DNA of 21,039 bases. Source: a virus. The notes below the pieces were generated by a model. The model saw only the letters and a list, made by a program, of their open reading frames with translations, had not been told where the DNA came from and ran no database searches. A program made the translations under genes and the position numbers. The stretch spans positions 1-21,039 of the IMG/VR virus record IMGVR_UViG_3300032299_001266; one strand, written 5' to 3'. This document shows, piece by piece, positions 1 through 21,016 of the stretch; position 1 is the stretch's first letter, and each line of letters starts with the position of its first letter.

Positions 1-443
1 AATTCGTTGTCGAGTTGAAATTTCCAATTATCCGATTCAATAACTTCAACCATTCTTGATTCTCGGTCTCTGTGCCACTTTAGTTCTCCATCATCAACTG
101 ATTCGGTGAACACCCTTAAACTTTTACCTTCACTTATTGTTTCATCATATGGATGTGTATTTTTTTCTGATTTATTTAAATAAACCATAACCGTATTATC
201 ATCTTCACCGATAAATACAACCCCCATTTTAACATAGTCAATAATAATTTTGGTAACATCAAATTTGATGGTATCACTCAATGCTGGATTACTTTCAATA
301 TAAAAAGTATATCCACCTAAAACATTTTTACGAATATTAGATATTGATAAAGAAACTTCATAACCAAATTTTTTCTTTATTTTTGGTTCCGCAAATTTTT
401 TCAAATATGCGATTATAACTTTTTTCAATACTTCATTACCCAT
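1..443 (-). CDS. Hypothetical protein, C-terminus off the window edge
   Basis: An open frame begins at the ATG complementary to 441-443 (MGNEVLKKVIIAYLKKF) and stays open to base 1, giving 147 visible codons; the stop lies outside the window. The start overlaps the stop of the upstream gene by one base (TGATG), so translational coupling is likely. The visible protein is mixed alpha/beta with no signal peptide or membrane segment. A charged stretch near residues 127-135 (WHRDRESRM) precedes an EVIESDNWKF segment. I do not recognise the family. Pairing with the neighbouring ARHNC/YWSC-like gene suggests they work together, but that is inference from coupling only. Confidence 0.75.
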   Translation of the reverse strand, partial: MGNEVLKKVIIAYLKKFAEPKIKKKFGYEVSLSISNIRKNVLGGYTFYIESNPALSDTIKFDVTKIIIDYVKMGVVFIGEDDNTVMVYLNKSEKNTHPYDETISEGKSLRVFTESVDDGELKWHRDRESRMVEVIESDNWKFQLDNE

Positions 444-1018
444 CACCAATACCCTCCGTAAGTTTTACCGCCCCATAGGTGCGCATATCGGTTAATTCTA
501 CACGACCAGTACCCCGCTGTCATTCTATCTTTTTTTGCTTTACAATTATGTCTTGAAGCAAATTTACGTCTTGCCTCAGGATTTGATACTTTAGCGGATA
601 AACCACCTTTAACGTCACCAAATGAAATCTTTTTTACTTTACCTGTTGATGGATTTTTAACATATACAACATATTTTTTACCACCACCGGTGTTTCTCAT
701 AGGTCTACCTAATTGAACTTTCCTTCCTTTATACTCCGCCTCATTGATTTGTTCTACAATATATGGAACTTCTAAACGAACCACTTCACCATTTGACAAT
801 TTAACTTGTTTTCCAAAATCGGATTCTACTAACCATTTATCACTCAAACCAATTTGTATTTTATTTTGGTTATATAGCTCTCTAACTTCATTGATTAGTC
901 CAAAAAAATTATCAGAATAAGGTCTGTAAATATTTTCAGTTAATGATATTCCTTCATCTAAATGAAATTCAAGATTTTTAGAAACTTCGGCTTCTGTTAT
1001 TAAAATTAATGGTGTCAT
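443..1018 (-). CDS. Tagged basic protein with ARHNC/YWSC-like C-terminal domain
   Basis: A 191-residue protein. I chose the ATG at 1018 rather than an upstream in-frame start because it lies 13 bases after an ATATTTAT motif and avoids overlap with the divergent gene at 1055. The N-terminus (MTPLILITEAEVSKNL) resembles the ITE-type tag seen on other proteins here. The C-terminal half holds a glycine/lysine-rich stretch (residues 105-135, YVVYVKNPSTGKVKKISFGD) and a conserved-looking end with RRKFASRHNC (150-159) and GYWSCR (169-174), so C159 and C173 could bind metal or form a disulfide. Similar C-terminal motifs occur, from memory, in uncharacterised proteins of large marine myoviruses. The function is unknown; a virion-related role is an inference. 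Confidence 0.8.
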   Translation of the reverse strand: MTPLILITEAEVSKNLEFHLDEGISLTENIYRPYSDNFFGLINEVRELYNQNKIQIGLSDKWLVESDFGKQVKLSNGEVVRLEVPYIVEQINEAEYKGRKVQLGRPMRNTGGGKKYVVYVKNPSTGKVKKISFGDVKGGLSAKVSNPEARRKFASRHNCKAKKDRMTAGYWSCRINRYAHLWGGKTYGGYW

Positions 1019-1019
1019 A

Positions 1020-1050
1020 TTTGTTTTTAATATAAATATTCGTATCTTTG
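1020..1050 (+). promoter_or_regulatory. Bacteroidota-type promoter, 4 nt before the start codon
   Basis: TTTG at 1020-1023, 19 bases, then TATCTTTG at 1043-1050, matching the Bacteroidota -33/-7 consensus. The ATG at 1055 follows after only 4 bases, which predicts a leaderless mRNA for the 1055-1683 operon. Confidence 0.8.
1032..1039 (-). promoter_or_regulatory. ATATTTAT motif before gene 443-1018
   Basis: ATATTTAT on the minus strand, 13 bases before the ATG at 1018. It lies inside the spacer of the divergent TAnnTTTG promoter, so the two could compete for polymerase. Confidence 0.5.
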
Positions 1051-1054
1051 TAAA

Positions 1055-1258
1055 ATGAAAGAGCAAATTATCTATTGTGAACGTTGTGGGGATAAATTAA
1101 ACCCTAATACTGCCGTTTGGCTTGAATTGTCAAATACTGATGGTAATTATTACGCTGAAAATGAATTCCCGTCTGACCATGTAAGTCAGGGTGGTTTTTC
1201 ATTTGGAAAGGCTTGTGCAAAAACGGAAATAAAAGAGACTAAACAAAGATTAAAATAA
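1055..1258 (+). CDS. Small CxxC protein, unknown
   Basis: A 67-residue protein that begins MKEQIIYCERCGDKL. The Cys-x-x-Cys at residues 8-11 looks like half of a zinc knuckle; a single further Cys (C54) follows in GKACAKTE, so a full four-ligand site is not evident. Its stop overlaps the next ATG by one base (TAATG), so it is cotranscribed and probably translationally coupled with the P-loop kinase-like gene. The start is fixed by a TAnnTTTG promoter ending 4 bases upstream. I do not recognise a named family; its place as first gene of this two-gene unit suggests an accessory role for the kinase. Confidence 0.75.
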   Translation: MKEQIIYCERCGDKLNPNTAVWLELSNTDGNYYAENEFPSDHVSQGGFSFGKACAKTEIKETKQRLK

Positions 1259-1683
1259 TGAACACTCAAAAGACTTTATACATCGTAAGAGGCGTATCAG
1301 GCTCAGGTAAATCAACATTTGCCAAAAAATTGGTTCATGATGATTTTTTAGTTTGTGAAGCGGATAAGTACTTCATTAACGAAGAAAATGGTAAATATGA
1401 GTTTGACATATCTAAAATAAGAGATGCTCATAAATGGTGTCAAAACTTGGTTGAGACCTATATGAAAGATAGTTTGATTAACGACCAATATTATCGTGAA
1501 ATTGCGGTATCCAACACATTCACTCAAGAATGGGAAATGGAACCCTATTTTGAATTGGCAAAAAAATATGGTTATACCGTGTTTACACTTATCGTTGAAA
1601 ACAGGCATGGTGGTGTTAACCAACACGGAGTACCCGAAGAAAAAATTAAAATAATGAAAGACAGGTTCGAAATTAAATTATAG
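1258..1683 (+). CDS. P-loop kinase of the AAA_33 / polynucleotide 5'-kinase-like type
   Basis: A 141-residue protein with a Walker A motif GVSGSGKST at residues 12-20. An acidic AD-KYF segment (36-39), a YEFD...AHKWCQ region (47-61), a VSNTFTQEWEMEPY segment (84-97) and a KKYGYTVFTLIVEN strand (102-115) follow. This order matches the compact N4BP2-like / AAA_33 kinases related to polynucleotide kinase, which phosphorylate 5'-OH ends of RNA or DNA using ATP; R116 and the following HGGVNQHGVP may form the lid. It is single-domain, with no phosphatase or ligase fused. It shares an operon with the CxxC peptide. The family call is good; substrate (RNA end, DNA end or small molecule) is not shown. 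Confidence 0.8.
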   Translation: MNTQKTLYIVRGVSGSGKSTFAKKLVHDDFLVCEADKYFINEENGKYEFDISKIRDAHKWCQNLVETYMKDSLINDQYYREIAVSNTFTQEWEMEPYFELAKKYGYTVFTLIVENRHGGVNQHGVPEEKIKIMKDRFEIKL

Positions 1684-4363: not shown

Positions 4364-5278
4364 TTATAAACTTAACAACATTTGTACTAATTCGGGTTGT
4401 GGGAACATATCCACTTTTCCTCTCATAACATTTGTATGGTTCCACATACCTTTGGTTCTTTCACATAAAGCAACATCCGTTCTATCAAAAGCCACAAATT
4501 CACCTTCTTTTTTTATTAGTTCGATTAATCCTTTTGTTACATTAATTGAATCTCTGTTTGCAATGAATAATACTAATTCTTTTAAATTATCAATTTGATT
4601 ATCAGAATATTTATGCCAATGTTTAAAACCTCTAAAAGGTTGGGATAACTCAACGATTTGACTTGGGTGAACTTCAGTACCAACATAGGTGTAAAATTTA
4701 TCAGGATTTAATTTCACCCAAACACCCTTTTTAGTATAACCACCTTTGGTTAATTGACCAAAATTACATACTTCAATACCCACGGAATTTCTGTGTATAA
4801 CATTATTACCAGTACCTAAATGCCACCCATATCCACCGTCAGGAATACATTTAACAACTTCACCATCAAATTTCTCATCATCACCTTTTATTGATTGACC
4901 ACCAATTACAAATTCCGTTGCAATTTGACCTCGAGTGTCATTACCCCAAGCACTAATAGTGTTATATGGATTATGCCATCCGGCGGTATGGTGTAAAAAT
5001 AACCATTCTTTTTTGGTTGGTCCTGAAAAATATTGGCCTCTAGGTAATAATTTTTCTTTAATAAGAATTTCACTATTTTCCACGATGTCGGTTGTTGAAA
5101 TACCCATAGCGTTCCATGTTATATGTCCAACAACACCATCATCCAATAGTCCATTTTGTTTTTGCCATTTTTTAACCGCCTTTTCAGTATTGGGACCGAA
5201 ATCACCATCAACGTAAATGTTTAAGAATTCTTGTAGCAATTCTACGTTTCTACCTTTTGTACCAATTTTTAATATCAT
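4364..5278 (-). CDS. N-acetylmuramoyl-L-alanine amidase (Amidase_2) with N-terminal peptidoglycan-binding domain
   Basis: A 304-residue endolysin-like enzyme that cuts the bond between MurNAc and the stem peptide. Residues 2-58 are a PG_binding_1 domain (GTKGRNVELLQEFLN, VDGDFGPNT, AVKKWQKQNGL). The Amidase_2 domain shows HHTAGWHNP at 96-104 (first Zn ligand H96), GYGWHLG at 149-155, NSVGIEVCN at 164-172 (E169 likely catalytic) and WNHTNVMRGKVDMFP at 279-293 (H281 and D290 as further ligands, K287). There is no signal peptide, so export depends on a holin or delivery from a virion. It lacks the ITE tag. An ATATTTAT motif lies 13 bases upstream, in a divergent region shared with the tagged SleB-type hydrolase. 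Confidence 0.92.
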   Translation of the reverse strand: MILKIGTKGRNVELLQEFLNIYVDGDFGPNTEKAVKKWQKQNGLLDDGVVGHITWNAMGISTTDIVENSEILIKEKLLPRGQYFSGPTKKEWLFLHHTAGWHNPYNTISAWGNDTRGQIATEFVIGGQSIKGDDEKFDGEVVKCIPDGGYGWHLGTGNNVIHRNSVGIEVCNFGQLTKGGYTKKGVWVKLNPDKFYTYVGTEVHPSQIVELSQPFRGFKHWHKYSDNQIDNLKELVLFIANRDSINVTKGLIELIKKEGEFVAFDRTDVALCERTKGMWNHTNVMRGKVDMFPQPELVQMLLSL

Positions 5279-5291
5279 AACTTTTTATTTA

Positions 5292-5299
5292 ATAAATAT
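5292..5299 (-). promoter_or_regulatory. ATATTTAT motif before the amidase gene
   Basis: ATATTTAT on the minus strand, 13 bases before the ATG at 5278. Back-to-back with the plus-strand copy at 5310-5317, 10 bases apart. Confidence 0.5.
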
Positions 5300-5309
5300 A
5301 TATTAAAGA

Positions 5310-5317
5310 ATATTTAT
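5310..5317 (+). promoter_or_regulatory. ATATTTAT motif, 5 nt before a start codon
   Basis: ATATTTAT, 5 bases before the ATG at 5323. If it is a -10-like element the transcript would start at or very near the start codon. Confidence 0.5.
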
Positions 5318-5322
5318 ACAAT

Positions 5323-6162
5323 ATGAAACTAATTATCACTGAAAATCAATTAAAAATCCTTATTAAAGAGATTGAAAACCCATGTCCAAAAGGTACCGCA
5401 GAAAATGAATTAATCGCTTTGTCTCAAGTTGAGAGTGGTTCGGTAATTAAAAAAGGGTATTGTAATACCAACAAAGAATCCGCAATCGTTAAAATCCAAT
5501 TAATGTTGCAAAATAAAGGATTATTAGATGTTAAAAATTATAATGGATATTACGGTGATAAAACTCAAAACGCGATTAAAAAACTTTTTGAACCCGAAGT
5601 TATTCAGGGAACAATGATAGGTAAAAAAACATTAGAAAAATTAAAAACATATAAAACATCGGTCAATAAAATTAATTCAAAACCTAATAATATTTCGGAA
5701 AAAGAATCTGAAAAATTGTTTAATTCTTTACCCACAAATGAAAAAAAGTTGGTTTGCACTTTGTTAGGGGAGGCTGGTGGTGAGTCCAATCCGATTAAAG
5801 GTATGACCGCAGTTGCAAATGTATTACAAAATAGAGCCAAAAATAACCATTATAATTTTGGTGGTTCTGCGGTTGAGCAAGCATTATATCCTTCACAATT
5901 TTCAATGTGGAATAAATATAATAAAGGTTCTGAAAAATTACAAAACGTTTATGACAAATATAAAAAGCATGGACAAATGAAGAATGCCATCGATATTGTC
6001 AAATCAATTGGTAATTTAAAAGATATTACAGGTGGTGCAAAATTTTATTATGCTAACTATGTCTCACCGAATTGGAGTAAAGAAACTAATGATAGTATTT
6101 TTGTTAAGACGGCAACAATTGGAAAACATATATTTGGTAATATTTTAAAAAAGAAAAAATGA
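5323..6162 (+). CDS. Tagged cell-wall hydrolase, SleB (Hydrolase_2) type
   Basis: A 279-residue protein in three parts. Residues 1-17 are the tag MKLIITENQLKILIKEI. Residues about 50-108 form a peptidoglycan-binding-like repeat (AIVKIQLMLQNKGLLD, YYGDKTQNAIKKLF). Residues about 140-275 are a SleB-type hydrolase: LLGEAGGE at 147-154 (E150 likely catalytic), GMTAVANVLQNRAKNN at 160-175, ALYPSQFSMW at 187-196, GGAKFYYANYVSPNW at 237-251 and IGKHIF at 266-271. SleB enzymes are lytic transglycosylases or muramidases acting on peptidoglycan. No signal peptide is present. The stop overlaps the next start (ATGA), coupling it with the next tagged gene. A virion-borne lysin is my preferred reading of tag plus enzyme. 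Confidence 0.88.
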   Translation: MKLIITENQLKILIKEIENPCPKGTAENELIALSQVESGSVIKKGYCNTNKESAIVKIQLMLQNKGLLDVKNYNGYYGDKTQNAIKKLFEPEVIQGTMIGKKTLEKLKTYKTSVNKINSKPNNISEKESEKLFNSLPTNEKKLVCTLLGEAGGESNPIKGMTAVANVLQNRAKNNHYNFGGSAVEQALYPSQFSMWNKYNKGSEKLQNVYDKYKKHGQMKNAIDIVKSIGNLKDITGGAKFYYANYVSPNWSKETNDSIFVKTATIGKHIFGNILKKKK

Positions 6163-6847: not shown

Positions 6848-7429
6848 ATGAAACTAATCATTACTGAAAGACAATATAAATTACTTGAGGATATCCAATC
6901 TATCCCAGTATATAAACCGACATCTTCGGTTTGTAAATCATTTTATAATAGACTTAAAAAGGAATTTCCTAATACCCCTGAATATATTTTGAAAGAATTT
7001 ACTAACAATGTTTTGTGTGGTGAAGTTGAAAATTTTAAGACTATTATGTCCCAATATTACGGAGACCCAATACCTTTTTTAAGTAAAATGGTGTATGAAT
7101 ATCTTGGTAGTAATTGGGAATTAAAAATAATTAAGGTTAATCCTGAGGATTTTACCGATAATACCGTAAATGCATTCCTTGAAAGAAATTTTGGGGAGAT
7201 TGATTCCTATCTGGTGGCTAACGATAAAGAACGAATGGATATTCAAAGAAAATTGGCAACCACTACCGGTAAAAACGAACCAATAATCGTTATTAAACAT
7301 AAAAATGGTAAATACGAACTGGTTGAAGGGTGGCATAGAGTTATGTCTACCTTAAAACTTGGTGATAATGGTGAAGACCTTAAAAATTGGGATAAGGTTA
7401 AACTACGAGCCTTTGTTAGTGAGAAGTAA
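6848..7429 (+). CDS. Tagged protein with ParB/Srx-like C-terminal domain
   Basis: A 193-residue protein starting MKLIITERQYKLLEDIQ. An in-frame ATG at 6833 would add MYLSC before the tag but overlaps the GTATTTAT motif, so 6848 is preferred. Residues about 90-193 look like the ParB/sulfiredoxin-like fold: a parameter strand (ELKIIKVNPEDF, 91-102), NEPIIVIKHKNGKYELVEGWHR (143-164, with the signature EGWHR where ParB-like proteins have GxxR), then VKLRAFV. ParB-like domains of phages bind DNA or nucleotides, and some are nucleases or kinases. The middle (28-85) is helical and unknown. The 3' end overlaps the convergent receiver-domain gene by 27 bases. Confidence 0.75.
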   Translation: MKLIITERQYKLLEDIQSIPVYKPTSSVCKSFYNRLKKEFPNTPEYILKEFTNNVLCGEVENFKTIMSQYYGDPIPFLSKMVYEYLGSNWELKIIKVNPEDFTDNTVNAFLERNFGEIDSYLVANDKERMDIQRKLATTTGKNEPIIVIKHKNGKYELVEGWHRVMSTLKLGDNGEDLKNWDKVKLRAFVSEK

Positions 7430-7780: not shown

Positions 7781-7784
7781 AATG

Positions 7785-7814
7785 CAAAGATAATATTTTA
7801 TTTTAATTCCACAA
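7785..7814 (-). promoter_or_regulatory. Bacteroidota-type promoter before a GTG start
   Basis: Minus strand: TTG (complement of 7812-7814), 19 bases, TATCTTTG (7785-7792), then CATT and the GTG at 7780. An exact consensus promoter with the 4-base spacing. Confidence 0.82.
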
Positions 7815-7866
7815 CTTTTTATATAAAAATAATAGGGATTGATTTAGGATTTATTAAAAACATTAT

Positions 7867-7874
7867 ATATTTAT
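7867..7874 (+). promoter_or_regulatory. ATATTTAT motif before the HNH gene
   Basis: ATATTTAT, 15 bases before the ATG at 7890. Confidence 0.42.
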
Positions 7875-7889
7875 TGGAAATGACTTATT

Positions 7890-8573
7890 ATGAAAAATTG
7901 TAAAATATGTAATATTGAAATAGACGATAAAAGAAAATATTGTTCTAATACTTGTTATTCTGTGGATAACAAAAAACGGTTAGTTGAAATGAATAAATCT
8001 AACATTGGTAAAAGTTGGGAAAACATTATGGGCGAAGATGTTGCAAAACAAAGAAGGATAAAACAATCCGCCCGATTATCTGAAAATAACCCATCAACTA
8101 ATCCGGAAACCGCAAAAAAAATATCAAATTCTCTATCCAAATACAGACAAAAAAATCCGTTAATTGGTGAAAAAAACCCATTTTTCAATAAAAATCATAC
8201 TGAAGAATTTAAGATTAAAACCTCTGAGAGTAAAAAAAATAAAAGAGCTTATAATGAAGAACAATTTTTAAAACAAAATCAAAATACACCAAAAGGTGAA
8301 AATCACCCAAATTGGAATGGTGGGTCATCCACTTTTCCATACCCATTTGGATTTAATAAACAATTAAAAGAAAGTATTAAAAAAAGAGATAATCATAAGT
8401 GTATGATATGTAATAAAGAAACTCAAAAATTGGCAATACACCATATTGATTATAATAAAGATAATATTGATTTATGTAATTTAATTTCTTTATGTTATAA
8501 TTGTCACCCAAAAACAAATTTTAATCGTGAAAATTGGATTAAATTTTTTGAGAATATGACAATTTGTCAGTAA
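7890..8573 (+). CDS. HNH endonuclease with N-terminal zinc ribbon
   Basis: A 227-residue protein. The N-terminus has a four-cysteine ribbon (C4, C7, C18, C22). Residues about 60-115 have NUMOD3-like DNA-binding repeats (ENNPSTNPETAKKIS, GEKNPFFNKNHTEEFK). GENHPNWNGG at 136-145 is typical of the linker before phage HNH domains. The HNH domain uses C171/C174 and C202/C205 as zinc ligands, with HH at 184-185 and the NLISLCYNCH segment at 197-206. This organisation is that of free-standing homing-type endonucleases. It sits directly upstream of dnaK, 95 bases away. Codon use is very A-rich. It may be an intron-less mobile gene inserted next to dnaK. Confidence 0.88.
   Translation: MKNCKICNIEIDDKRKYCSNTCYSVDNKKRLVEMNKSNIGKSWENIMGEDVAKQRRIKQSARLSENNPSTNPETAKKISNSLSKYRQKNPLIGEKNPFFNKNHTEEFKIKTSESKKNKRAYNEEQFLKQNQNTPKGENHPNWNGGSSTFPYPFGFNKQLKESIKKRDNHKCMICNKETQKLAIHHIDYNKDNIDLCNLISLCYNCHPKTNFNRENWIKFFENMTICQ
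8557..8569. promoter_or_regulatory. Palindrome upstream of dnaK, possible operator
   Basis: TGACAATTTGTCA is a 6-bp inverted repeat around one base, overlapping the last codons of the HNH gene. It lies about 41 bases before a TTGGCACG element. From memory, TGACA/TGTCA palindromes precede heat-shock genes in Flavobacteriia, but I could not verify this. Confidence 0.4.
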
Positions 8574-8668: not shown

Positions 8669-10525
8669 ATGGGAAAAATTTTAGGTGTGGATTTAGGAAC
8701 CACAAATTCTTGTTGTTCAATTATGGAGGGTGGAGACCCAATAATTATTGCCAATTCTGAAGGTAAAAGAATAACACCATCAATCATTGCTTTTTTAGAA
8801 GGCGGTGAAAGAAAAGTTGGTGACCCAGCAAAAAGACAAGCGGTTACCAATCCAACAAAAACTATCCACTCAATTAAACGATTTATGGGACTTACCTATG
8901 ATGAGAGTAAAAAAGAACTTAAAAATGTTCCTTACTCAGTAATTAATGAAGGGTCTCAACCAAGAGTTCAAATTGATGATAGACAATACTCACCACAAGA
9001 ATTATCCGCAATTATCTTACAAAAGATGAAACAAACTGCGGAAGATTATGTTGGTGAAACAATTACAGATGCGGTTATCACCGTACCAGCTTATTTTAAC
9101 GATGCCCAACGTCAGGCAACTATTGAAGCGGGACAAATCGCCGGATTAAATGTGTTAAGGATAATTTCGGAACCAACCGCGGCTGCTCTTGCGTATGGAC
9201 TTGATAAAAAGGGGGATAGTAAAATTGTTGTGTTTGACTGCGGAGGTGGAACTCACGACGTGTCTATTCTTGACTTAGGTGGTGGAGTATTTGAGGTATT
9301 ATCTACCGATGGAGACACTCACTTAGGAGGGGACGACTTTGACAGAGTCATTATTGATTACTTGATTGAAGAATTTAAGAATGATAATGGCGGTATAGAC
9401 ATCTCAAAAGACGCTATGGCATTACAAAGGTTAAGAGAAGGTGCTGAGAAAGCGAAAGTTGAATTATCTTCATCTCCTCAGACAGAAATCAACTTACCTT
9501 ATTTAAGTGCTGACGCTACCGGACCAAAACACTTGGTTAAAACTTTATCGAGAGCTAAGTTTGAACAACTTGCTTCTGATTTAATTAAAAGAACAATTGA
9601 CCCTTGTAAATCGGCATTAAAAAATGCGAATCTAAAACCATCAGATATTGATGAAGTTATTTTGGTTGGAGGTTCAACTAGAATACCTGCAATTCAGGAA
9701 GCGGTTAAAAAGTTCTTTGGTAAAGAACCATCAAAAGGTGTTAATCCGGATGAAGTAGTTGCGTTAGGAGCAGCTATTCAAGGAGGTGTGTTGGCTGGTG
9801 ATGTGAAAGATGTGTTGTTATTAGACGTAACACCACTTTCATTGGGTATTGAAACCATGGGTGGTATTTTTACAAAACTGATTGAATCTAATACAACAAT
9901 TCCCGCCAAAAGGTCTGAAACATTCTCAACCGCTGTTGATAATCAACCTTCCGTTGAAATTCATGTACTTCAAGGTGAAAGAGCCATGGTTAAGGATAAC
10001 AGAACTATCGGTCGTTTTCATCTTGATGGATTACCACCATCAATGAGAGGGGTTCCTCAAATTGAAGTGACTTTCGATATTGACGCAAACGGTATTATTA
10101 ATGTATCCGCAGTTGATAAGGCAACTAAAAAACAACAATCAATTAGAATTGAATCATCTTCAGGATTATCAAAGGAAGAAATTGAGAAAATGAAAATTGA
10201 GGCTGAACAAAATGCCGAATCTGACAAAAAATTAAAAGAAGATGCGGACACTTTAAATTCTGCCGATTCATTAATTTTCCAAGTTAATAAATCAATGGGT
10301 GATTTGGGTGATAAAATAACTGAAGAACAAAAAAATGAAATTACCACAACAATAGACAAACTTCGTGAAGCTCACAATCAAAAAAATGTTTCTGAGGTTA
10401 AGGTGTTGATTGAGGAGGTTAATTCAAAATTTCAAAAGATAACTCAAGACCTTTATCCTCAAACTCAAGAAACCGATGAAGGGGGGTTTGACGCTTCAGA
10501 TGTTGAATTTGAAGAAATTAAGTAA
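8669..10525 (+). CDS. dnaK: Hsp70 chaperone DnaK
   Basis: A 618-residue, full-length Hsp70, slightly shorter than the usual 635-640. The nucleotide-binding domain has VDLGTTNSC at 7-15, ITVPAYFND at 137-145, [13 protein letters not shown] at 166-178 and [11 protein letters not shown] at 215-225 with T217, the equivalent of the autophosphorylated Thr. The VGGSTRIPA motif, the [11 protein letters not shown] linker, a beta-sandwich peptide-binding domain and a helical lid follow, and the protein ends [11 protein letters not shown], close to the C-terminal EEVK-type tail that docks co-chaperones. Phosphate-2 loop residues are unusual: [11 protein letters not shown], with C191 and H196 where Leu and Phe are near universal. 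No dnaJ or grpE lies nearby, so host partners are probably used. It could help virion assembly or replication. Confidence 0.97.
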
Positions 10526-10535
10526 ATAATTTGAA

Positions 10536-10561
10536 CCCCGATTGAAATGTCGGGGATTTTT
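10536..10561 (+). terminator. dnaK terminator overlapping the next promoter
   Basis: CCCCG (10536-10540), a 10-base loop, CGGGG (10551-10555) and ATTTTT. The loop contains the TTG -33 element of the next gene's promoter. Confidence 0.85.
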
Positions 10562-10571
10562 ATTATATTTG
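10542..10571 (+). promoter_or_regulatory. Bacteroidota-type promoter, 4 nt before the start codon
   Basis: TTG at 10542-10544, 19 bases, TATATTTG at 10564-10571, then CATT and the ATG at 10576. Confidence 0.82.
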
Positions 10572-10575
10572 CATT

Positions 10576-11178
10576 ATGAAAGTACTATTTTTAGACCACG
10601 ATGGTGTAATCTGTCTATCCACAGAGTGGGGAGGTCGATTTAAAAAAGAAAAAAAGCTTAGAGATGAAACGGGTGTTCTACGTAAATTAGGTTCACCACA
10701 TTACGGTTTACCTGTTGATTGTAGATTTGATAACTTTAATAAAAAAGCTATTAATGTACTTAACTCAATCCTTGAGGAAACAGAGGCTGAAATTGTAGTT
10801 TCTTCTGATTGGAAAAGATGGGCGAATGTTGAGGAAATGGGCGAATATTACCTATCACAAGGTATCATCAAAAAACCAATTGATTTCACACCAAGTTTAA
10901 GTCAATGCACTAACTACGATAACGACACATTCCCTTGGTCACGTCAGTGGGACTTGGAACAAACTAGGTCTATCGAAATTAAACAATATCTTCAGGACCA
11001 CCCTGAAATTACACATTGGGTTGCGGTAGATGATTTGAATATGGGTAAGACAGGATTATACTATAGTATGGAGTTTGAACATGAATGGGGTTTAGATAAT
11101 TTTGTGTTAACCCCATTACGTAATCAAGGAATCAAACAATCGGGCATCAAAGAAAAGATTGTAAAGTTCCTTACATAA
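10576..11178 (+). CDS. HAD phosphatase of the SAK RNA-repair type (HAD_SAK_2-like)
   Basis: A 200-residue protein. HAD motif I is FLDHDGV at 5-11, with nucleophile D7 and acid/base D9. Motif II is VVSSDWK at 74-80 (S76), which also supplies a lysine (K80). Motif IV is WVAVDDL at 148-154 (D152, D153). The segment RFDNFNKKAINVLNSIL and the acidic end match the HAD branch found in Swiss-Army-Knife RNA repair proteins, where it removes phosphates from nucleic-acid ends. Here it stands alone. It has its own consensus promoter with a 4-base leader and its own terminator, so it is a one-gene unit. Nucleic-acid end processing is inferred from the family. Confidence 0.82.
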   Translation: MKVLFLDHDGVICLSTEWGGRFKKEKKLRDETGVLRKLGSPHYGLPVDCRFDNFNKKAINVLNSILEETEAEIVVSSDWKRWANVEEMGEYYLSQGIIKKPIDFTPSLSQCTNYDNDTFPWSRQWDLEQTRSIEIKQYLQDHPEITHWVAVDDLNMGKTGLYYSMEFEHEWGLDNFVLTPLRNQGIKQSGIKEKIVKFLT

Positions 11179-11179
11179 A

Positions 11180-11208
11180 AAAACCTCCAGATATCTGGGG
11201 GTTTTTTT
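11180..11208 (+). terminator. Bidirectional terminator
   Basis: AAAACCTCCAG-AT-CTGGGGGTTTTTTT type stem-loop (one T-G pair) between the convergent genes ending at 11178 (+) and 11207 (-). Confidence 0.88.
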
Positions 11209-11452
11209 ATTCTTCGGTATTTTCAGTCTCCTTAAAAAAGTTGGTCATAAATTTACCAACAACACCTAAAACTATTGACGCAATTATCAATCCTTTAAGT
11301 TCTGTTTGAGTAAAAATATCTTTTAAATTATCAAATTGCCATATACCACCAATCGATAATACTGTCGCCACCGCTAACAATGAGTCACCTAATCTTCTCC
11401 ATTTTTTTGGAGTTGGTTTCCAATAATTTTTAATAGTTATTTTATTTGCCAT
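11207..11452 (-). CDS. Putative holin
   Basis: An 81-residue protein. The polar, basic N-terminus (WKPTPKKWRRLGD, 11-23) is followed by two hydrophobic segments, about 22-38 (LGDSLLAVATVLSIGGIW) and 53-69 (KGLIIASIVLGVVGKF). A charged C-terminus (FFKETENTEE) ends it. Two transmembrane helices, small size and charged ends fit a phage holin, and similar WKPTPKK...GVVGKFxTNFF proteins are, from memory, annotated as holins in Bacteroidota phages. It would open the inner membrane for the amidase. It starts 4 bases after an ATATTTAT motif. The amidase gene is 6 kb away, so there is no single lysis cassette. Confidence 0.7.
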   Translation of the reverse strand: MANKITIKNYWKPTPKKWRRLGDSLLAVATVLSIGGIWQFDNLKDIFTQTELKGLIIASIVLGVVGKFMTNFFKETENTEE

Positions 11453-11456
11453 ATCT

Positions 11457-11464
11457 ATAAATAT
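11457..11464 (-). promoter_or_regulatory. ATATTTAT motif, 4 nt before a start codon
   Basis: ATATTTAT on the minus strand followed by AGAT and the ATG at 11452. Confidence 0.5.
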
Positions 11465-11476
11465 TATAAATTTTGT

Positions 11477-11608
11477 TTATCTACCCTGACCTTTGTATTT
11501 TTTTGGTTTTTCTTCTTTAGGTCCGAATTTCTTTTTAAAATTACCAACACTTCTTTTTCCGAAAGATTGTTTCATCGAATTACTTGTTGTTGATTTACCT
11601 TTAGCCAT
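11477..11608 (-). CDS. 43-aa highly basic protein
   Basis: ATG complementary to 11606-11608, TAA complementary to 11477-11479. The product MAKGKSTTSNSMKQSFGKRS is followed by a lysine-rich half ending KKYKGQGR. About a third of the residues are Lys or Arg, and the only acidic residues are two adjacent Glu. It has no hydrophobic core, so it is probably unstructured until bound. It resembles small nucleic-acid-binding or DNA-condensing phage proteins in composition, but I do not recognise a family. An ATATTTAT motif lies 31 bases upstream, and a holin-like gene follows on the same strand. Confidence 0.7.
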   Translation of the reverse strand: MAKGKSTTSNSMKQSFGKRSVGNFKKKFGPKEEKPKKYKGQGR

Positions 11609-11639
11609 TTTATTTAAAATTTTTGGTTTATAATATTAA

Positions 11640-11647
11640 ATAAATAT
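11640..11647 (-). promoter_or_regulatory. ATATTTAT motif before the basic-protein gene
   Basis: ATATTTAT on the minus strand, 31 bases before the ATG at 11608. Confidence 0.4.
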
Positions 11648-11661
11648 CAAATTTTTTAAAT

Positions 11662-11694
11662 AAAAAAAAAGGAGGTTAAAAACCCCCTTTTTTT
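11662..11694 (-). terminator. Bidirectional terminator, stronger on the minus strand
   Basis: Minus strand: GGGGGTT-TTT-AACCTCC followed by nine T, with one G-T pair. On the plus strand the same site has an A-C mismatch. It ends the transcript of 11748-11984 and the candidate small RNA. Confidence 0.8.
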
Positions 11695-11740
11695 GTATAT
11701 ATAAAGGCTCTCGTGATGAGAGTGATAGTTTAATAAATAT
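11662..11740 (-). ncRNA. Candidate small RNA between a promoter-like motif and a terminator
   Basis: On the minus strand, ATATTTAT (11733-11740) lies just after the stop of 11748-11984. About 30 bases with a CTCTC-ATCAC-GAGAG hairpin follow, then the terminator at 11662-11694. There is no ATG in the interval. It may be an independent small RNA of about 65 nt, or merely the 3' end of the upstream mRNA. Confidence 0.3.
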
Positions 11741-11747
11741 TAAATTT

Positions 11748-11984
11748 TTATTTTTTCCGTTTAGAAAACATATTATTCAAAGATTTAAATAACTCGTCTT
11801 GATTTGAGAGTAAATCGCCCATGTTTTTAAACATATTCGGATTCATTTTATTGTTCGTAATATTTTTCATGTTGTCCATTAGTTCAAATAATTTTTTACC
11901 ATAATTTCTCCACCAAAAATAGACACCACATGAGATTAATATAAGAATTAAGACTAAAAAGGTAAGAATAATATTTAGATACAT
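11748..11984 (-). CDS. Small membrane-anchored protein
   Basis: A 78-residue protein with one N-terminal transmembrane helix at about residues 3-26 (NIILTFLVLILILISCGVYF). A WWRNYGKK boundary follows, then a polar, methionine- and asparagine-rich helical domain (MDNMKNITNNKMNPNMFKNM) and a basic end SKRKK. It probably sits in the inner membrane with the polar part in the cytoplasm. This could be a lysis accessory (spanin-like or antiholin-like) or a superinfection protein; the sequence does not decide. No clear promoter of either class is seen upstream. Confidence 0.72.
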   Translation of the reverse strand: MYLNIILTFLVLILILISCGVYFWWRNYGKKLFELMDNMKNITNNKMNPNMFKNMGDLLSNQDELFKSLNNMFSKRKK

Positions 11985-12054
11985 ATTTTTTTTTCATAAT
12001 TATATATTAAATGGATTAATAAGTCAATATGTTGAATAATGTTTTAAATTAATT

Positions 12055-12062
12055 ATATTTAT
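12055..12062 (+). promoter_or_regulatory. ATATTTAT motif, 4 nt before a start codon
   Basis: ATATTTAT followed by TCAG and the ATG at 12067. Confidence 0.5.
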
Positions 12063-12066
12063 TCAG

Positions 12067-12336
12067 ATGAGACGTGCGATAGAACTATTGATAAATAAAC
12101 TTTATAAACCAGATTTAGAATTATTGTTTGGTGGTGGTAGTCGTGTAATTGTTAATTATTGTAGGTACTGCACGAACAACTTAAGTTTCGTTATTGACTG
12201 TAAAGTTTTAGTTTCAGATATTGAATTATCCAAAGATGTTTATCCCGATGGTTTGGTTTTACTCGTTAAAGATTCTTGGAGATTTATAGGTTTGGATGAA
12301 AAAATCTCAGTGATATGCTCTATTGATATTACATGA
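12067..12336 (+). CDS. Hypothetical phage protein
   Basis: An 89-residue protein starting MRRAIELLINKLYKPD, with a glycine-rich GGGSRVIVN (22-30), two cysteines in YCRYC (31-35) and a beta-rich second half (SFVIDCKVLVSDIEL, YPDGLVLLVKDSW). The second half is reminiscent of small conserved proteins of Bacteroidota phages that I cannot name. It starts 4 bases after an ATATTTAT motif, the closest spacing of that class. Its last 30 bases overlap the end of the convergent gene 12307-12510, with no terminator between them. Confidence 0.7.
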   Translation: MRRAIELLINKLYKPDLELLFGGGSRVIVNYCRYCTNNLSFVIDCKVLVSDIELSKDVYPDGLVLLVKDSWRFIGLDEKISVICSIDIT

Positions 12337-12510
12337 TTCTGAAATAAATCCTCTTTTAATGTATTCACGATGAACATCCTCAACAATAATAATATTGTCA
12401 ACATTATATGAATTCTTTATTTTTTCACTAATATCGTTATGAAATTCGTTAAAAACACCACAGTTATAAGCTTCCCAATAAAGTTCTTCAATTAAAGATT
12501 CGTTTGTCAT
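12307..12510 (-). CDS. Hypothetical acidic protein
   Basis: A 67-residue protein. The ATG at 12510 (MTNESLIEELYWEAYNCG) is chosen; an upstream in-frame codon runs into the ATATTTAT motif region. A helical N-terminus is followed by NVDNIIIVEDVHREYIKRG. No family recognised. Its upstream ATATTTAT motif is 22 bases away. The 3' end overlaps the plus-strand gene by 30 bases. Confidence 0.65.
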   Translation of the reverse strand: MTNESLIEELYWEAYNCGVFNEFHNDISEKIKNSYNVDNIIIVEDVHREYIKRGFISESCNINRAYH

Positions 12511-12532
12511 AATAAGTTTAGATGATATTAGT

Positions 12533-12540
12533 ATAAATAT
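12533..12540 (-). promoter_or_regulatory. ATATTTAT motif before gene 12307-12510
   Basis: ATATTTAT on the minus strand, 22 bases before the ATG at 12510. Confidence 0.4.
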
Positions 12541-12570
12541 CACGTTAATTTAATAATATTTAAATATTTG

Positions 12571-12601
12571 TTGATTATTTGAAAAATAAAACCTAACTTT
12601 G
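12571..12601 (+). promoter_or_regulatory. Bacteroidota-type promoter of the FKBP gene
   Basis: TTG at 12571-12573, 20 bases, TAACTTTG at 12594-12601, then 14 bases to the ATG at 12616. Confidence 0.8.
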
Positions 12602-12615
12602 TAAAAAAATATATT

Positions 12616-13041
12616 ATGAAACAAATTAAAAACGGTGATACTGTAAAAGTACACTACACAGGAAAATTAGACGATGGAACAGTGTTTGATTCATCATTAA
12701 CTGAGGGACGAACACCTTTGGAGGTTGTATTGGGTTCCAATATGTTGATTAAAGGGTTTGAAAATGGTTTGATTGGTTTATCCGAAGGCGATAAAAAAAC
12801 CTTAGAAATTAACCCATCTGAAGGGTATGGTGAATATCAAAAAGAAATGATTAATGAAATTCCAAAGACAAGCGTACCTGAGAATGTTAAAGTTGGTGAG
12901 ATGTTGCAGGGTATGAGTCCTATGGGGCCGATAAATGTTAAAGTGGTTCAAATTAATGAAGAAACCGTGGTTATTGATGCCAACCATCCTTTAGCGGGTA
13001 AAAATCTTGTTTTTGATATTGAAATTGTAAGTGTTAATTAA
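12616..13041 (+). CDS. FKBP-type peptidyl-prolyl isomerase, SlyD-like
   Basis: A 141-residue protein. The FKBP core shows KVHYTGKLDDGTVFDSS at 11-27, PLEVVLG at 34-40, LIKGFENGLIGLSEGDK at 44-60 and NPSEGYGEY at 66-74. An inserted flap-like domain (about 75-120) follows, then VVIDANHPLAGKNLVFDIEI at 118-137. This is the SlyD architecture, which combines prolyl isomerase and chaperone activity; the histidine-rich metal-binding tail of E. coli SlyD is absent. It should act in the cytoplasm, speeding proline-limited folding. It has its own host-type promoter and leads a short plus-strand run. With DnaK and ClpP it forms a phage-carried protein quality-control set. Confidence 0.92.
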   Translation: MKQIKNGDTVKVHYTGKLDDGTVFDSSLTEGRTPLEVVLGSNMLIKGFENGLIGLSEGDKKTLEINPSEGYGEYQKEMINEIPKTSVPENVKVGEMLQGMSPMGPINVKVVQINEETVVIDANHPLAGKNLVFDIEIVSVN

Positions 13042-13049
13042 AAAAAAAT

Positions 13050-13367
13050 ATGAATATGTTAAATAATGTTATTAAAAAAATAACCCCAATTTTAAAATCC
13101 TTATTAATTTATGGTATTATTTTATTGTTGGCGGCATCTTCGTTCTTAATTGGGAGTTATTACCAAAAAATTAATACAACCCCAAAAATTAGAGAAATTT
13201 CAAATGTATTTAAGCGGGACATTGTTATTGCTGTGGATGAAAACAATAATTTAATAATTATTGAAAAATCAACGGGTGACTATACGGTATATCAAGATTC
13301 AATAGGTAAGAGTATTTTTACCATTTATGCAAATAAAGTTTTGAGTCAGGGTAGTTCAGAAAAATAA
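13050..13367 (+). CDS. Membrane-anchored hypothetical protein
   Basis: A 105-residue protein with a short basic N-terminus, one transmembrane helix at about 15-37 (LKSLLIYGIILLLAASSFLI) and a polar remainder with FKRDIVIAVDENNNLIIIEK. It starts 8 bases after the FKBP stop and ends 2 bases before the next ATG, so it is in the same operon. The orientation, with positive residues before the helix, predicts the C-terminal part outside the cytoplasm. An i-spanin-like role is possible but not shown. No family recognised. Confidence 0.75.
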   Translation: MNMLNNVIKKITPILKSLLIYGIILLLAASSFLIGSYYQKINTTPKIREISNVFKRDIVIAVDENNNLIIIEKSTGDYTVYQDSIGKSIFTIYANKVLSQGSSEK

Positions 13368-13369
13368 TT

Positions 13370-13561
13370 ATGAAATTCACGGACAAAGTTGAAATTACCT
13401 ATCATACGTTAGTTGAGGTAAATAGAGCATTTAACTCTTTAATAAAAAATAAGAAAAGTTACTTATACAAAGTATTTTCTGATGATGGTGTTTTCTTCGC
13501 AATTGATGAAATAAAAAATAAATTAAATGAAATTGAGGGGATGACCGAAAATCAACCCTGA
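13370..13561 (+). CDS. Small hypothetical protein
   Basis: A 63-residue protein (MKFTDKVEITYHTLVEVN), mixed charge and likely helical, ending EIEGMTENQP. It follows the membrane protein by 2 bases and precedes the transglycosylase by 22 bases, so it belongs to the same operon. No motif recognised. Confidence 0.65.
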   Translation: MKFTDKVEITYHTLVEVNRAFNSLIKNKKSYLYKVFSDDGVFFAIDEIKNKLNEIEGMTENQP

Positions 13562-13583
13562 TAATATCACAACAACTTATTTT

Positions 13584-14126
13584 ATGAAAATTAAAAACAT
13601 ATTTTTATTCTCAATCTTAACAGTTTCAACAATCATTATTGTTGGTTATTATAATAAAAAAGAACATGTTAAAAATAATCATACATATATTGGTGGGGTG
13701 GGTAGTGAATCGTCATTACCCGTCTCATTAAATATGTACGAAATAATTGAAGAATTATGTGGTGAATATAATATTCCAAAATATATTGCATACAATATTG
13801 CGTTTTTGGAGACCAGATATGAAGGTCCTTTTGATAAGAATTATAACCCATATTTAACCTCATTTGCGGGCGCTGAAGGGCCTATGCAAATAATGCCATC
13901 AACCGCCAATGGTATTCACAAGAAACATATCAATATTAATACCCTTAGAACCGATTTAAGGTTAAATATTGAGACAAGTATGAAATTATTGAAAAGATTA
14001 CATAACAAATATGGTGATTGGTCTTTAGTGTGCGGATATTATAATACAGGTAGACCGATTATTAACGGATATGCACAATTTTGTTCAACAAATAAAAATT
14101 ATCAAAAAAATTGGGTCAAACCTTAA
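13584..14126 (+). CDS. Lytic transglycosylase (SLT domain) with N-terminal membrane anchor
   Basis: A 180-residue protein. An N-terminal hydrophobic segment at about 5-22 (NIFLFSILTVSTIIIVGY) acts as signal anchor; no clear signal-peptidase site follows. The SLT lysozyme-like domain shows YIAYNIAFLETRYEG at 67-81 with likely catalytic E76, GAEGPMQIMPSTANG at 96-110, NIETSMKLLKRL at 128-139 and GDWSLVCGYYNTGRP at 144-158. Such enzymes cut the MurNAc-GlcNAc bond with 1,6-anhydro formation. Secretion by the host makes this one different from the signal-less amidase and tagged hydrolases in the same window. It could be an export-type endolysin. It is the last gene of the FKBP-led run. Confidence 0.88.
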   Translation: MKIKNIFLFSILTVSTIIIVGYYNKKEHVKNNHTYIGGVGSESSLPVSLNMYEIIEELCGEYNIPKYIAYNIAFLETRYEGPFDKNYNPYLTSFAGAEGPMQIMPSTANGIHKKHININTLRTDLRLNIETSMKLLKRLHNKYGDWSLVCGYYNTGRPIINGYAQFCSTNKNYQKNWVKP

Positions 14127-14129
14127 AAA

Positions 14130-14519
14130 TTATTCGTACATTTTTGGTTCTTTACCAGGATTTTCTTTTTCAAAAGTTTTAATTAGTGAGCCGGCTTTGG
14201 AGTTAGCCTCATTTTCATTCTTACCACCAATATCGGGACCATTATTTCGGTTTAAAACCTTCATTTGATACTCATGTATCCATTCGTGTACTAAAGTCCT
14301 GCAAATGTCACGATTCATCCTATTTTTACTTAAAATTTTTAAAACACCATGTTTGTTTCTACTACCTGTAGACATTCCTTCAGTTTTTTTACCTAAAAAT
14401 AAAACTGTGATATCTTTTTTTAACGGAACCTCTTTCTGTAAGAACTTTATAAAGTTGTTAAAAAACTTATGTTCTTTAGTTGGTATACCTGAATTGATAT
14501 GTTTCACAATTACTTTCAT
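14130..14519 (-). CDS. HExxH metallopeptidase-like protein
   Basis: A 129-residue protein with a zinc-binding HEWIH at 78-82 (LVHEWIHEYQ) and a candidate third ligand in NENEANSKAG at 101-110, the arrangement of small zincins. Upstream, FLGKKTEGMSTGSRNKHG (41-58) and LKILSKNRMNRDICRTL (60-76) fit a minimal peptidase core. No signal peptide or propeptide is visible. From memory, similar HExxH proteins occur in large phages, where a role in virion protein processing or cell-wall peptide cleavage has been guessed. It starts 5 bases after an ATATTTAT motif and is divergent from the tagged lysozyme-like gene. Confidence 0.75.
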   Translation of the reverse strand: MKVIVKHINSGIPTKEHKFFNNFIKFLQKEVPLKKDITVLFLGKKTEGMSTGSRNKHGVLKILSKNRMNRDICRTLVHEWIHEYQMKVLNRNNGPDIGGKNENEANSKAGSLIKTFEKENPGKEPKMYE

Positions 14520-14524
14520 ATATG

Positions 14525-14532
14525 ATAAATAT
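14525..14532 (-). promoter_or_regulatory. ATATTTAT motif, 5 nt before a start codon
   Basis: ATATTTAT on the minus strand, CATAT, then the ATG at 14519. Divergent partner of the copy at 14556-14563. Confidence 0.5.
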
Positions 14533-14555
14533 AGTTGATTTAAATAATAAATAAG

Positions 14556-14563
14556 ATATTTAT
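14556..14563 (+). promoter_or_regulatory. ATATTTAT motif before gene 14577
   Basis: ATATTTAT, 13 bases before the ATG at 14577. Confidence 0.48.
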
Positions 14564-14576
14564 TTTAAAAGTGATT

Positions 14577-15188
14577 ATGTATAAAAAATTAATTATAGAA
14601 GAATCTGAAAAAATTCATATACAAAATTTGTATGGATTAAATGAACAGGAAGTTTCTAATCCAATTTTATTAGACTTACTTAAAAAAGCGTTGGAGTTAT
14701 CTAAAAATGGTGATAATGATAAACCTGATTTAGATAATTTATCAAAAACACCATTAACAAAAACAACATCTGACGATGATTTTTATAAAAAAATTTTAGA
14801 TGGTGTTGACGCCCCCGTCACTCCTGAGAATATGAAATTTTTATACGCTTGGAGGCAAGCTGAAGGTGGTAAAGCAAAAAACAACCCATTTAATACGACA
14901 CAACCAAAACCAAATTCAACATTTTATAACTGTCTAAAACAAAGAAATAACGGGTGTGTTTCAGGTGTTAGAAACTATCAAACAGAACAAGACGGTGTTG
15001 ACGCGACTATTCAAACATTAAAAAACGGTAGATATCAAGGCATTTTGAACGCACTGAAAAAAGGTGATAGCGCAATTGATGTTGGTATGGCACTTAAAAA
15101 TTCTCCGTGGGGTACAGGTGAATTAGCGATTAAAGTATTAAAAGGTTATGAATCAGGTGCTACACCAAAACCGCAGGATATTGCTTAA
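14577..15188 (+). CDS. Tagged lysozyme/transglycosylase-like protein
   Basis: A 203-residue protein. The ATG at 14577 is preferred over the GTG six bases earlier. The N-terminus MYKKLIIEESEKIHIQNLYG is a variant of the tag, followed by a low-complexity linker (about 40-65). The C-terminal domain (about 70-190) shows FLYAWRQAEGGKAKNNPFNTT at 88-107 (candidate catalytic E96), GVRNYQTEQDGVDATIQTLKNG at 130-151 and YQGILNALKKGDSA at 153-166. This pattern occurs in phage tail or virion-associated lysozyme-like domains. With the SleB-type protein, it is the second case of tag plus peptidoglycan hydrolase. The 3' end overlaps the convergent gene by 4 bases. Confidence 0.8.
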   Translation: MYKKLIIEESEKIHIQNLYGLNEQEVSNPILLDLLKKALELSKNGDNDKPDLDNLSKTPLTKTTSDDDFYKKILDGVDAPVTPENMKFLYAWRQAEGGKAKNNPFNTTQPKPNSTFYNCLKQRNNGCVSGVRNYQTEQDGVDATIQTLKNGRYQGILNALKKGDSAIDVGMALKNSPWGTGELAIKVLKGYESGATPKPQDIA

Positions 15189-15424
15189 GATATTAATATT
15201 TGTAGCGTTATACCCGCTTCCCCTGATGACAACTTATAAGTATTATATCGGTTGTCATTAATAAACCCATAATTATTAAATTTAAATATAATAACATCTT
15301 CATTGTTATATTTACCATTTATCGTATTTGTTTGATAATCAATATGGGGGTCTTTAATTAAATTTAGTTTCCAAGGATTAACAAAATCCCCCTCTAATTC
15401 TTCCGGTATTATGTGTATAAACAT
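15185..15424 (-). CDS. Hypothetical protein
   Basis: A 79-residue protein (MFIHIIPEELEGDFVNPWKL) that looks beta-rich, with many Asn and Tyr (NNYGFINDNRYNTYKL). It is the last gene of the thyA operon and starts 2 bases after the stop of the membrane-protein gene. Its end overlaps the convergent tagged lysozyme-like gene by 4 bases. No family recognised. Confidence 0.65.
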   Translation of the reverse strand: MFIHIIPEELEGDFVNPWKLNLIKDPHIDYQTNTINGKYNNEDVIIFKFNNYGFINDNRYNTYKLSSGEAGITLQILIS

Positions 15425-15426
15425 TA

Positions 15427-15741
15427 TTACAATAATTGAAGTAAAATATAACTTAATTTATATCCTATGAAGGCTCCTAATGCAGATGGTATTGGGAAAA
15501 CTATTAATTTACCAAAGTCTGTAACATATTTTGGTCTATTAACTATTCTACCCATAAAAAAATAGTAAATTAAATACCCAATTAAAACCGCAACATCAGT
15601 TCTAGTTGAGATGAAGACCACAAGAATCGCACTTAAAAATCCGAAAGTGAAATTATCTCTAATTCCTTCCCACACCTCAATCGGTGATGCGGCCCTCCAT
15701 TCTTTAACTATTTTATAATATTTGTAATGTTTTTTTTTCAT
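15427..15741 (-). CDS. Small multi-pass membrane protein
   Basis: A 104-residue protein with a basic N-terminus (MKKKHYKYYKIVKEWR), then about three hydrophobic segments: 32-46 (TFGFLSAILVVFIS), 49-64 (DVAVLIGYLIYYFFM) and 79-102 (LIVFPIPSALGAFIGYKL). It lies in the thyA operon, 9 bases after the preceding gene. It might affect the host membrane, for example in superinfection exclusion, but nothing in the sequence shows this. No family recognised. Confidence 0.72.
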   Translation of the reverse strand: MKKKHYKYYKIVKEWRAASPIEVWEGIRDNFTFGFLSAILVVFISTRTDVAVLIGYLIYYFFMGRIVNRPKYVTDFGKLIVFPIPSALGAFIGYKLSYILLQLL

Positions 15742-20653: not shown

Positions 20654-21016
20654 TTAAATTTCTTGATAATTTAGGTTTTTACCCATGGTAATATATTTAT
20701 TTTTATTGGGTAATTCGTTTAGAGATTTTAAAATAGTATTTAATAATGCTTTGGACTCATTGGGTAATTTATTGTAATCAGATTGAACTTTGTTTCGTAA
20801 ATTAAGTAGATGTTTTAATAATAGATTTCTAAACTCATTATTTTTCATGGTATCATTAATAACATTCATTTCTGTGCCGTGGCTATATAGATATCCGATT
20901 GATGCCAAAATATCATTATCATTATCAGTAAGTTGTTTTGGGTCGGACATCTCCGATATAACCCGTTTAACAATCCTTGTTAAATCTGATTCTGTAAGTC
21001 TTATAACTTTTGACAT
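20654..21016 (-). CDS. Tagged hypothetical protein with RLTESDL N-terminus
   Basis: A 120-residue protein beginning MSKVIRLTESDLTRIVKRVI, the form of the tag that I have seen many times in uncharacterised proteins of Bacteroidota phages. The rest is helical and polar (NDNDILASIGYLYSHGTEMN, LKHLLNLRNKVQSDYNKL), without a motif I recognise. An ATATTTAT motif 15 bases upstream lies exactly at the window edge. It heads the minus-strand run down to 19680. Confidence 0.8.
   Translation of the reverse strand: MSKVIRLTESDLTRIVKRVISEMSDPKQLTDNDNDILASIGYLYSHGTEMNVINDTMKNNEFRNLLLKHLLNLRNKVQSDYNKLPNESKALLNTILKSLNELPNKNKYITMGKNLNYQEI

Follow-up and report, generated by a model that had tools for sequence, protein, structure and literature searches.

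A host-type, probably early, and a phage-type, probably late, promoter element interlocked in a 36-bp divergent gap of a large Bacteroidota phage

The window analysed here, a virus record of 21,039 bases with 30.4% GC, derives from a large virus of Bacteroidota bacteria, and its genes include those for DnaK, ClpP, thymidylate synthase and a cell-wall hydrolase. Two divergent genes are separated by a 36-base gap between start codons at 1018 (minus strand) and 1055 (plus strand). The original prediction placed two promoter classes in this gap, the minus-strand element lying inside the spacer of the plus-strand promoter, and every element and both starts read as claimed. The features are as follows:

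443-1018, minus strand: gene for a 191-aa protein, late class, relative of phrog_7595 (a family of unknown function)
1020-1023, plus strand: TTTG, -33 element of the host-type (early) promoter, assigned from sequence and a family-wide 19-20 nt spacing to TAHHTTTG
1032-1039, minus strand: ATATTTAT, late element, 13 nt 5' of the minus-strand ATG, with a putative transcription start near 1025-1027
1043-1050, plus strand: TATCTTTG, early -7 element, 4 nt 5' of the ATG, with +1 predicted at 1055 from sequence and the start spacing given in PMC6847099
1055-1258, plus strand: gene for a 67-aa protein, early class
1258-1683, plus strand: ATPase/polynucleotide-kinase-like gene, the next on this strand

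The two -10-type elements, early on the plus strand and late on the minus strand, lie 3 bp apart. Statistics for both motifs were gathered from the window and six related records of 164-294 kb (L094-L164), handled as pieces no longer than 20 kb, with gene starts taken from our own simple hexamer-based caller.

By count within the window, TTTG-N19-TANNTTTG with at most one mismatch is not significant (14 versus 9.2 expected; 9 of 100 shuffles reach 14); the significance of this class comes from position. Of 1647 called starts across the window and six records, 53 have TAHHTTTG at a distance of exactly 4 nt, compared with 1 at 3 nt and 3 at 5 nt; from 10 to 59 nt the mean is 2.2 per position. 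TTTG is found 19-20 nt upstream of the motif as a spacing peak across the related phages. The site at 1020-1050 (TTTG-N19-TATCTTTG) has both the -7 TAHHTTTG and the -33 TTTG spacing of the Bacteroidota primary-sigma promoter. For Flavobacterium johnsoniae, PMC6847099 reports many starts 4-5 nt downstream of the -7 element and leaders longer than 10 nt in 87% of predicted transcripts. A 4-nt gap, combined with this start spacing, therefore predicts leaderless mRNA, of which the TTTG-N19-TATCTTTG-N4-ATG site at 1055 is a clear predicted case. The host control comprised 80 Bacteroidota loci reached via the window's DnaK, 23 below 40% GC and 57 others. TAHHTTTG stood at a gap of 4 nt in 0 of 58 occurrences in the former and 10 of 135 in the latter, versus 53 of 220 in the phages; the host loci of at least 40% GC had nine further occurrences at a gap of 6 nt. 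Such host loci thus also have leaderless-type promoters, and the layout is enriched in these phages rather than unique to them.

The late element is over-represented in the window itself: ATATTTAT occurs 23 times versus 7.1 (sd 2.8) in dinucleotide shuffles, none of 100 reaching 23. In the window and six records it lies within 80 nt upstream in sense orientation for 325 of 1649 genes and in antisense for 99. Within 100 nt upstream of 1647 genes, TATTTAT preceded by A, G or C gave 497 sense and 173 antisense cases; preceded by T, it gave 67 sense and 106 antisense. The wider late consensus is VTATTTAT, a strand-specific class in the six related large phage records. It is a short -10-type element with no evident -35 partner; its distance from the start codon peaks at 4-7 nt and again at 12-20 nt, and it also occurs at least 30 nt upstream. 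In the host loci ATATTTAT is rare, found in sense orientation upstream of 3 of 296 genes (the 23 loci below 40% GC) and 4 of 851 (the 57 others). In the literature searched, we noticed no VTATTTAT late promoter and no leaderless Bacteroidota phage genes, which does not show that none exists. As a separate observation from the window and L094-L164, few sites of either class lie between the modes (5, 6 and 4 VTATTTAT at 9, 10 and 11 nt; 14 TAHHTTTG in total at 5-11 nt), as though leaders only a few nucleotides long were avoided.

The genes behind the two motifs fit an early and a late class. In the six records, VTATTTAT precedes all five head-tail adaptor ORFs (one record had no match); these were not chosen from the class lists, and this count is not circular. 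The motif precedes three of five long terminase matches and is absent from two (11 rows in all, six shorter ones being left out of the count), and TATCTTTG-N4-ATG precedes both RNA ligase genes. Because both ligases and two of the five terminases were already in the class lists, these two counts are partly circular; of the three terminases not in the earlier lists, one has the motif. Among eight late-class proteins compared with PHROGs, one matched a terminase, one a family of unknown function, and six had no match there; ten early-class proteins included matches to RNA ligase, peptidase, phosphoesterase and phosphohydrolase, with four lacking a PHROG match. VTATTTAT is borne by some non-structural genes, among them the HNH-like gene at 7890 and ORFs without an assigned function. 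That 1019-1054 holds an early/late pair is well supported; the timing itself is an inference.

Late-class proteins often begin with a short tag of the type MKLIITESQ..., seen in the window in the proteins at 443-1018 (minus), 5323-6162, 6848-7429, 14577-15188 and 20654-21016 (minus). ITE with S, N, R, D, K or Q as the next residue occurs within the first 16 residues of 24 of 387 late-class proteins, as against 0 of 53 in the leaderless early class, 1 of 59 among other early proteins and 17 of 1158 among the remainder. Certain T4 proteins carry capsid-targeting sequences, which the tag resembles, and it may mark virion-packed proteins.

The gap had also been likened to other close divergent pairs in the window, which contain the following elements:

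5292-5299, minus strand: late element of the amidase-like gene 4364-5278, in a late/late pair
5310-5317, plus strand: late element of the cell-wall-hydrolase-like gene 5323-6162
7785-7792, minus strand: early -7 element TATCTTTG, 4 nt before the GTG at 7780
7867-7874, plus strand: late element of the HNH-endonuclease-like gene 7890-8573, in a loose early/late pair with 7785-7792
14525-14532, minus strand: late element of gene 14130-14519, in a late/late pair
14556-14563, plus strand: late element of the gene at 14571/14577

The two copies of ATATTTAT claimed for each of 5279-5322 and 14520-14576 are present, but the likeness does not extend to promoter class: there is one copy per strand, each in sense to its own gene, so that both are late/late pairs. 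The pair at 7781-7889, described as looser, is early/late, 109 bp apart and not interlocked. Among 126 divergent pairs with gaps of up to 400 bp, 16 were early/late versus 10.0 expected (P 0.0065; 2000 label shuffles within gap bins), in a test devised after the fact that includes four window pairs; the others were 23 late/late, 51 late/none, 29 none/none, 6 early/none and 1 early/both. Only 3 of the 53 leaderless early promoters in the window and six records have an antisense late element in the 48 nt upstream, at offsets of 3, 4 and 4 nt, one of them (in L146) outside the early/late pair list; a sense late element was found upstream of one, at an offset of 31.

At the window's own locus the interlock is kept by several relatives. 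One contig (L001; protein 91% identical) has an identical 36 bp. In L085, L003, L409 and L101 (the record of L002) the letters between the elements vary, while TTTG or TTG, TAnnTTTG and the antisense ATATTTAT are all preserved. The plus-strand gene is the kinase-like gene in L409; L002 and L003 have it too, to judge by a visual reading of the first residues. The interlock is absent from L004-L006. Of 80 relatives of the 443-1018 gene (five without a start found), 20 of the remaining 75, several of them identical copies, have an exact ATATTTAT within 75 nt upstream. TAHHTTTG lies 4 nt before the start in 7 of 13 relatives of the 67-aa gene, and the late partner is also present in two of those seven (L081, which is the contig of L001, and L085). 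The early and late elements also occur apart.

Recurrence beyond this locus was assessed in two IMG/VR scans, one requiring ATAAATA within the spacer of the early promoter and the other, as control, the permuted AATAATA. Each scan covered at least 120 stretches, and 227 loci were pooled; a downstream ORF of at least 40 aa and a divergent ORF of at least 50 aa were required, with start distances of 0-22 nt allowed. The scans were compared only by the share with a divergent ORF, using this single permuted control. Among the matches listed, 21 of 83 distinct ATAAATA early promoters had a divergent ORF at the right distance (12-20 nt observed), as did 2 of 69 in the permuted control, both from L366, which also carries ATAAATAT and counts among the 21. 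The base after ATAAATA, corresponding to V before TATTTAT, was non-A in 21 of 21 divergent cases versus 31 of 62 others, again among the matches listed. Fisher P values of 6e-5 and 8e-6 assume that related contigs are independent and are too small. The ATAAATA-to-TANNTTTG offset was 3-4 nt in 19 of the 21 divergent cases, within a pattern that allowed only 1-6 nt; non-divergent matches favour 3 nt as well (20 of 62), so the fixed offset may partly reflect an A/T preference of the early spacer.

Proteins were inspected for 18 of the 21 loci, and L439, L449 and L452 were placed by promoter sequence. One N-terminus is common to eleven late genes, of which the member tested (L411) matches head-tail adaptor phrog_211. 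Six late genes resemble the window's 443-1018 family, the two tested (L377, L369) matching phrog_7595; L367 and L449 form a pair, and L445 and L366 are singletons, the latter doubtful (67 aa). At least four late-gene families occur in interlocks, and their early neighbours vary. The interlock at 1019-1054 is real and part of a recurrent layout. The early genes opposite the adaptor gene are of at least five kinds by N-terminal sequence; in L393, L411, L418, L425, L429, L435, L359, L387 and L441 the early gene has been swapped, mostly for ORFs of about 280-350 aa, and the four tested (L411, L418, L435, L359) had no PHROG match. This position has the look of a hotspot for accessory genes.

A protein of about 250 aa is a candidate for the sigma factor that reads VTATTTAT. 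Its match to the T4 late-sigma family is weak, with E values of 1.2e-4 to 1.4e-3 in five of six records, and four homologues gave weak values against PHROGs (E 0.0035-0.034). With one homologue as query, it was found in all six large records and not in G006, a 185-kb record. Its gene lies outside the window, which counts against the explanation that we favour below. An AlphaFold model (mean pLDDT 75.9, pTM 0.39) gave tied best structural matches to T4 gp55 (7d7c_F, Z 11.3, rmsd 4.8, 119 aligned) and S. aureus sigB. Sigma factors made up most of the best 50 listed; three unrelated ribosomal proteins scored Z 9.4-10.7, and the structure-comparison tool warns that helical models can reach such values. 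Alignment with nine gp55 sequences by hhalign gave a probability of 46% (E 2e-4) over region 2. Foldseek alone returned no match at E 0.001 or better, with many sigma factors among the best 50 listed, and a PDB sequence search with the sigma alignment returned five chains up to E 1, no sigma factor among them. VTATTTAT stands 4-6 nt before the ATG of the gene following the candidate in all 36 loci read by eye, out of 45 around the candidate gene (one dropped by length, eight without a start).

Taking these observations together, we favour with reasonable confidence a reading of the 36-bp gap as a composite divergent promoter, in which a host-sigma early and a phage-sigma late promoter are ordered mainly by sigma replacement. 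Early in infection, host holoenzyme with the primary sigma (sigma-ABfr type) would read TTTG-N19-TATCTTTG and initiate on the first base of the ATG at 1055, and the 67-aa and kinase-like genes would be expressed from a leaderless mRNA. The gp55-like protein, as the most probable phage sigma, would later bring host RNA polymerase to VTATTTAT, and transcription of the 443-1018 gene would start near 1025-1027 with a leader of about 7-9 nt. The footprint of RNA polymerase exceeds such element spacing; with the -10-type elements 3 bp apart, the early and late complexes would exclude each other, since by this geometry two holoenzymes could not occupy the gap together. The two flanking genes probably take turns. 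A change of sigma factor could by itself set the order, and shut-off of the early promoter by late occupancy would be a likely, secondary effect. Against this reading speak the weak sequence matches of the sigma candidate, the presence of exact ATATTTAT at only 20 of 75 relatives of the 443-1018 gene, and the two long terminase matches that lack the motif.

The overlap could instead be the regulator, a selected switch in which binding of the late holoenzyme turns the early gene off and the late gene on at once and the offset is maintained by selection. The occurrence of interlocks with four or more late-gene families, the 3-4 nt offset in 19 of 21 divergent cases among the matches listed and the excess of early/late divergent pairs are consistent with this; however, that offset was measured with a scan confined to 1-6 nt and is favoured by non-divergent matches too, as a spacer A/T preference may explain, the pair test was post hoc with four window pairs included, and only 3 of 53 leaderless early promoters show the arrangement. 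We consider such a switch rather unlikely; compact promoters may interlock for economy, which we consider the likelier cause. A bolder proposal, tentative and also rather unlikely, is a portable early/late composite promoter of about 45 bp, with the late element in the early spacer at a fixed offset. Late sigma replacement would then, by a single binding event, turn the late gene on and the opposite early gene off, and one early gene after another would have been acquired behind the promoter with the late gene retained.

Other alternatives concern VTATTTAT itself. It may be a phage promoter class that is read by a factor other than the gp55-like protein, or that is middle rather than late. The sigma assignment was built on weak sequence matches, a search for the T4 clamp family (phrog_223) gave no match in any of the six records, its controls also being without a match, and the motif occurs at some non-structural genes; the head-tail adaptors (5 of 5) and terminases (3 of 5) nevertheless point to late genes, and we judge this alternative improbable. 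That VTATTTAT is an mRNA 5'-region signal or a regulator site is very unlikely: a fixed distance to the start codon would suit a translation signal too, but there are two distance modes as well as sites at least 30 nt upstream, and TATTTAT lies near tail genes in the cultured phage immuto as well. Finally, TATAAATA can be read on the plus strand at 1031-1038, where a T4-type late promoter might drive the 1055 gene. Strand statistics led us to reject this candidate as highly implausible, TATTTATA being the sense orientation family-wide (255 sense versus 72 antisense genes, within 50 nt upstream).

Under the favoured composite-promoter reading, we offer a promoter code consisting of an early TAHHTTTG at 4 nt, a late VTATTTAT at 4-7 or 12-20 nt, and the sigma candidate. 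Such a code could allow the early and late genes of a group of large Bacteroidota phages, known mainly from metagenomes, to be told apart with no more than the sequence. Leaderless mRNAs are predicted to be a regular feature of these phages, and the gap offers a clean site for testing whether overlapping two-sigma promoters act as a switch.

Comparison with known systems places each part among familiar kinds. The early promoter resembles the Bacteroidota primary-sigma promoter of F. johnsoniae (-33 TTTG/-7 TANNTTTG) in both elements and in the 19-20 nt spacing, as described in PMC6847099; the phages differ in that the -7 element precedes the start by exactly 4 nt in 53 of 220 upstream occurrences. 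Immuto, an Immutovirus of Flavobacterium, encodes a homologue of the sigma candidate (25.8% identity over 91%), and of its 47 starts listed, 6 have TATTTAT in the 60 nt upstream, including those of a tail-spike gene and of the gene after the sigma homologue; ATATTTAT there is distributed by strand 8 versus 1 and 9 versus 2. It differs in that many of its starts do not have TAHHTTTG at 4 nt but are preceded by TATATTTAGG-type elements and have longer leaders, and a near-identity DNA search matched thymidylate synthase only. L346 (immuto 3-5A) contains, at 9501-15692, a run of short genes, mostly of unknown function, many behind a near-identical GTTG...TATATTTAGGTATCAATAATTAAAA promoter.

The late class shares with the T4 late promoter a short -10-type element that lacks an obvious -35 partner, and its sigma candidate may correspond to gp55. 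The T4 late consensus is TATAAATA, whereas the motif here is VTATTTAT, and the T4 clamp family, as noted, had no match in a search whose controls had none either. The lambda PR/PRM promoters are divergent, overlapping phage promoters, likewise opposed and near enough to compete for polymerase; there a repressor sets the order, whereas here two sigma specificities would. The interlock is a variant of known promoter arrangements, and the late motif, sigma candidate and leaderless subclass together form a testable code for a mostly uncultivated group.
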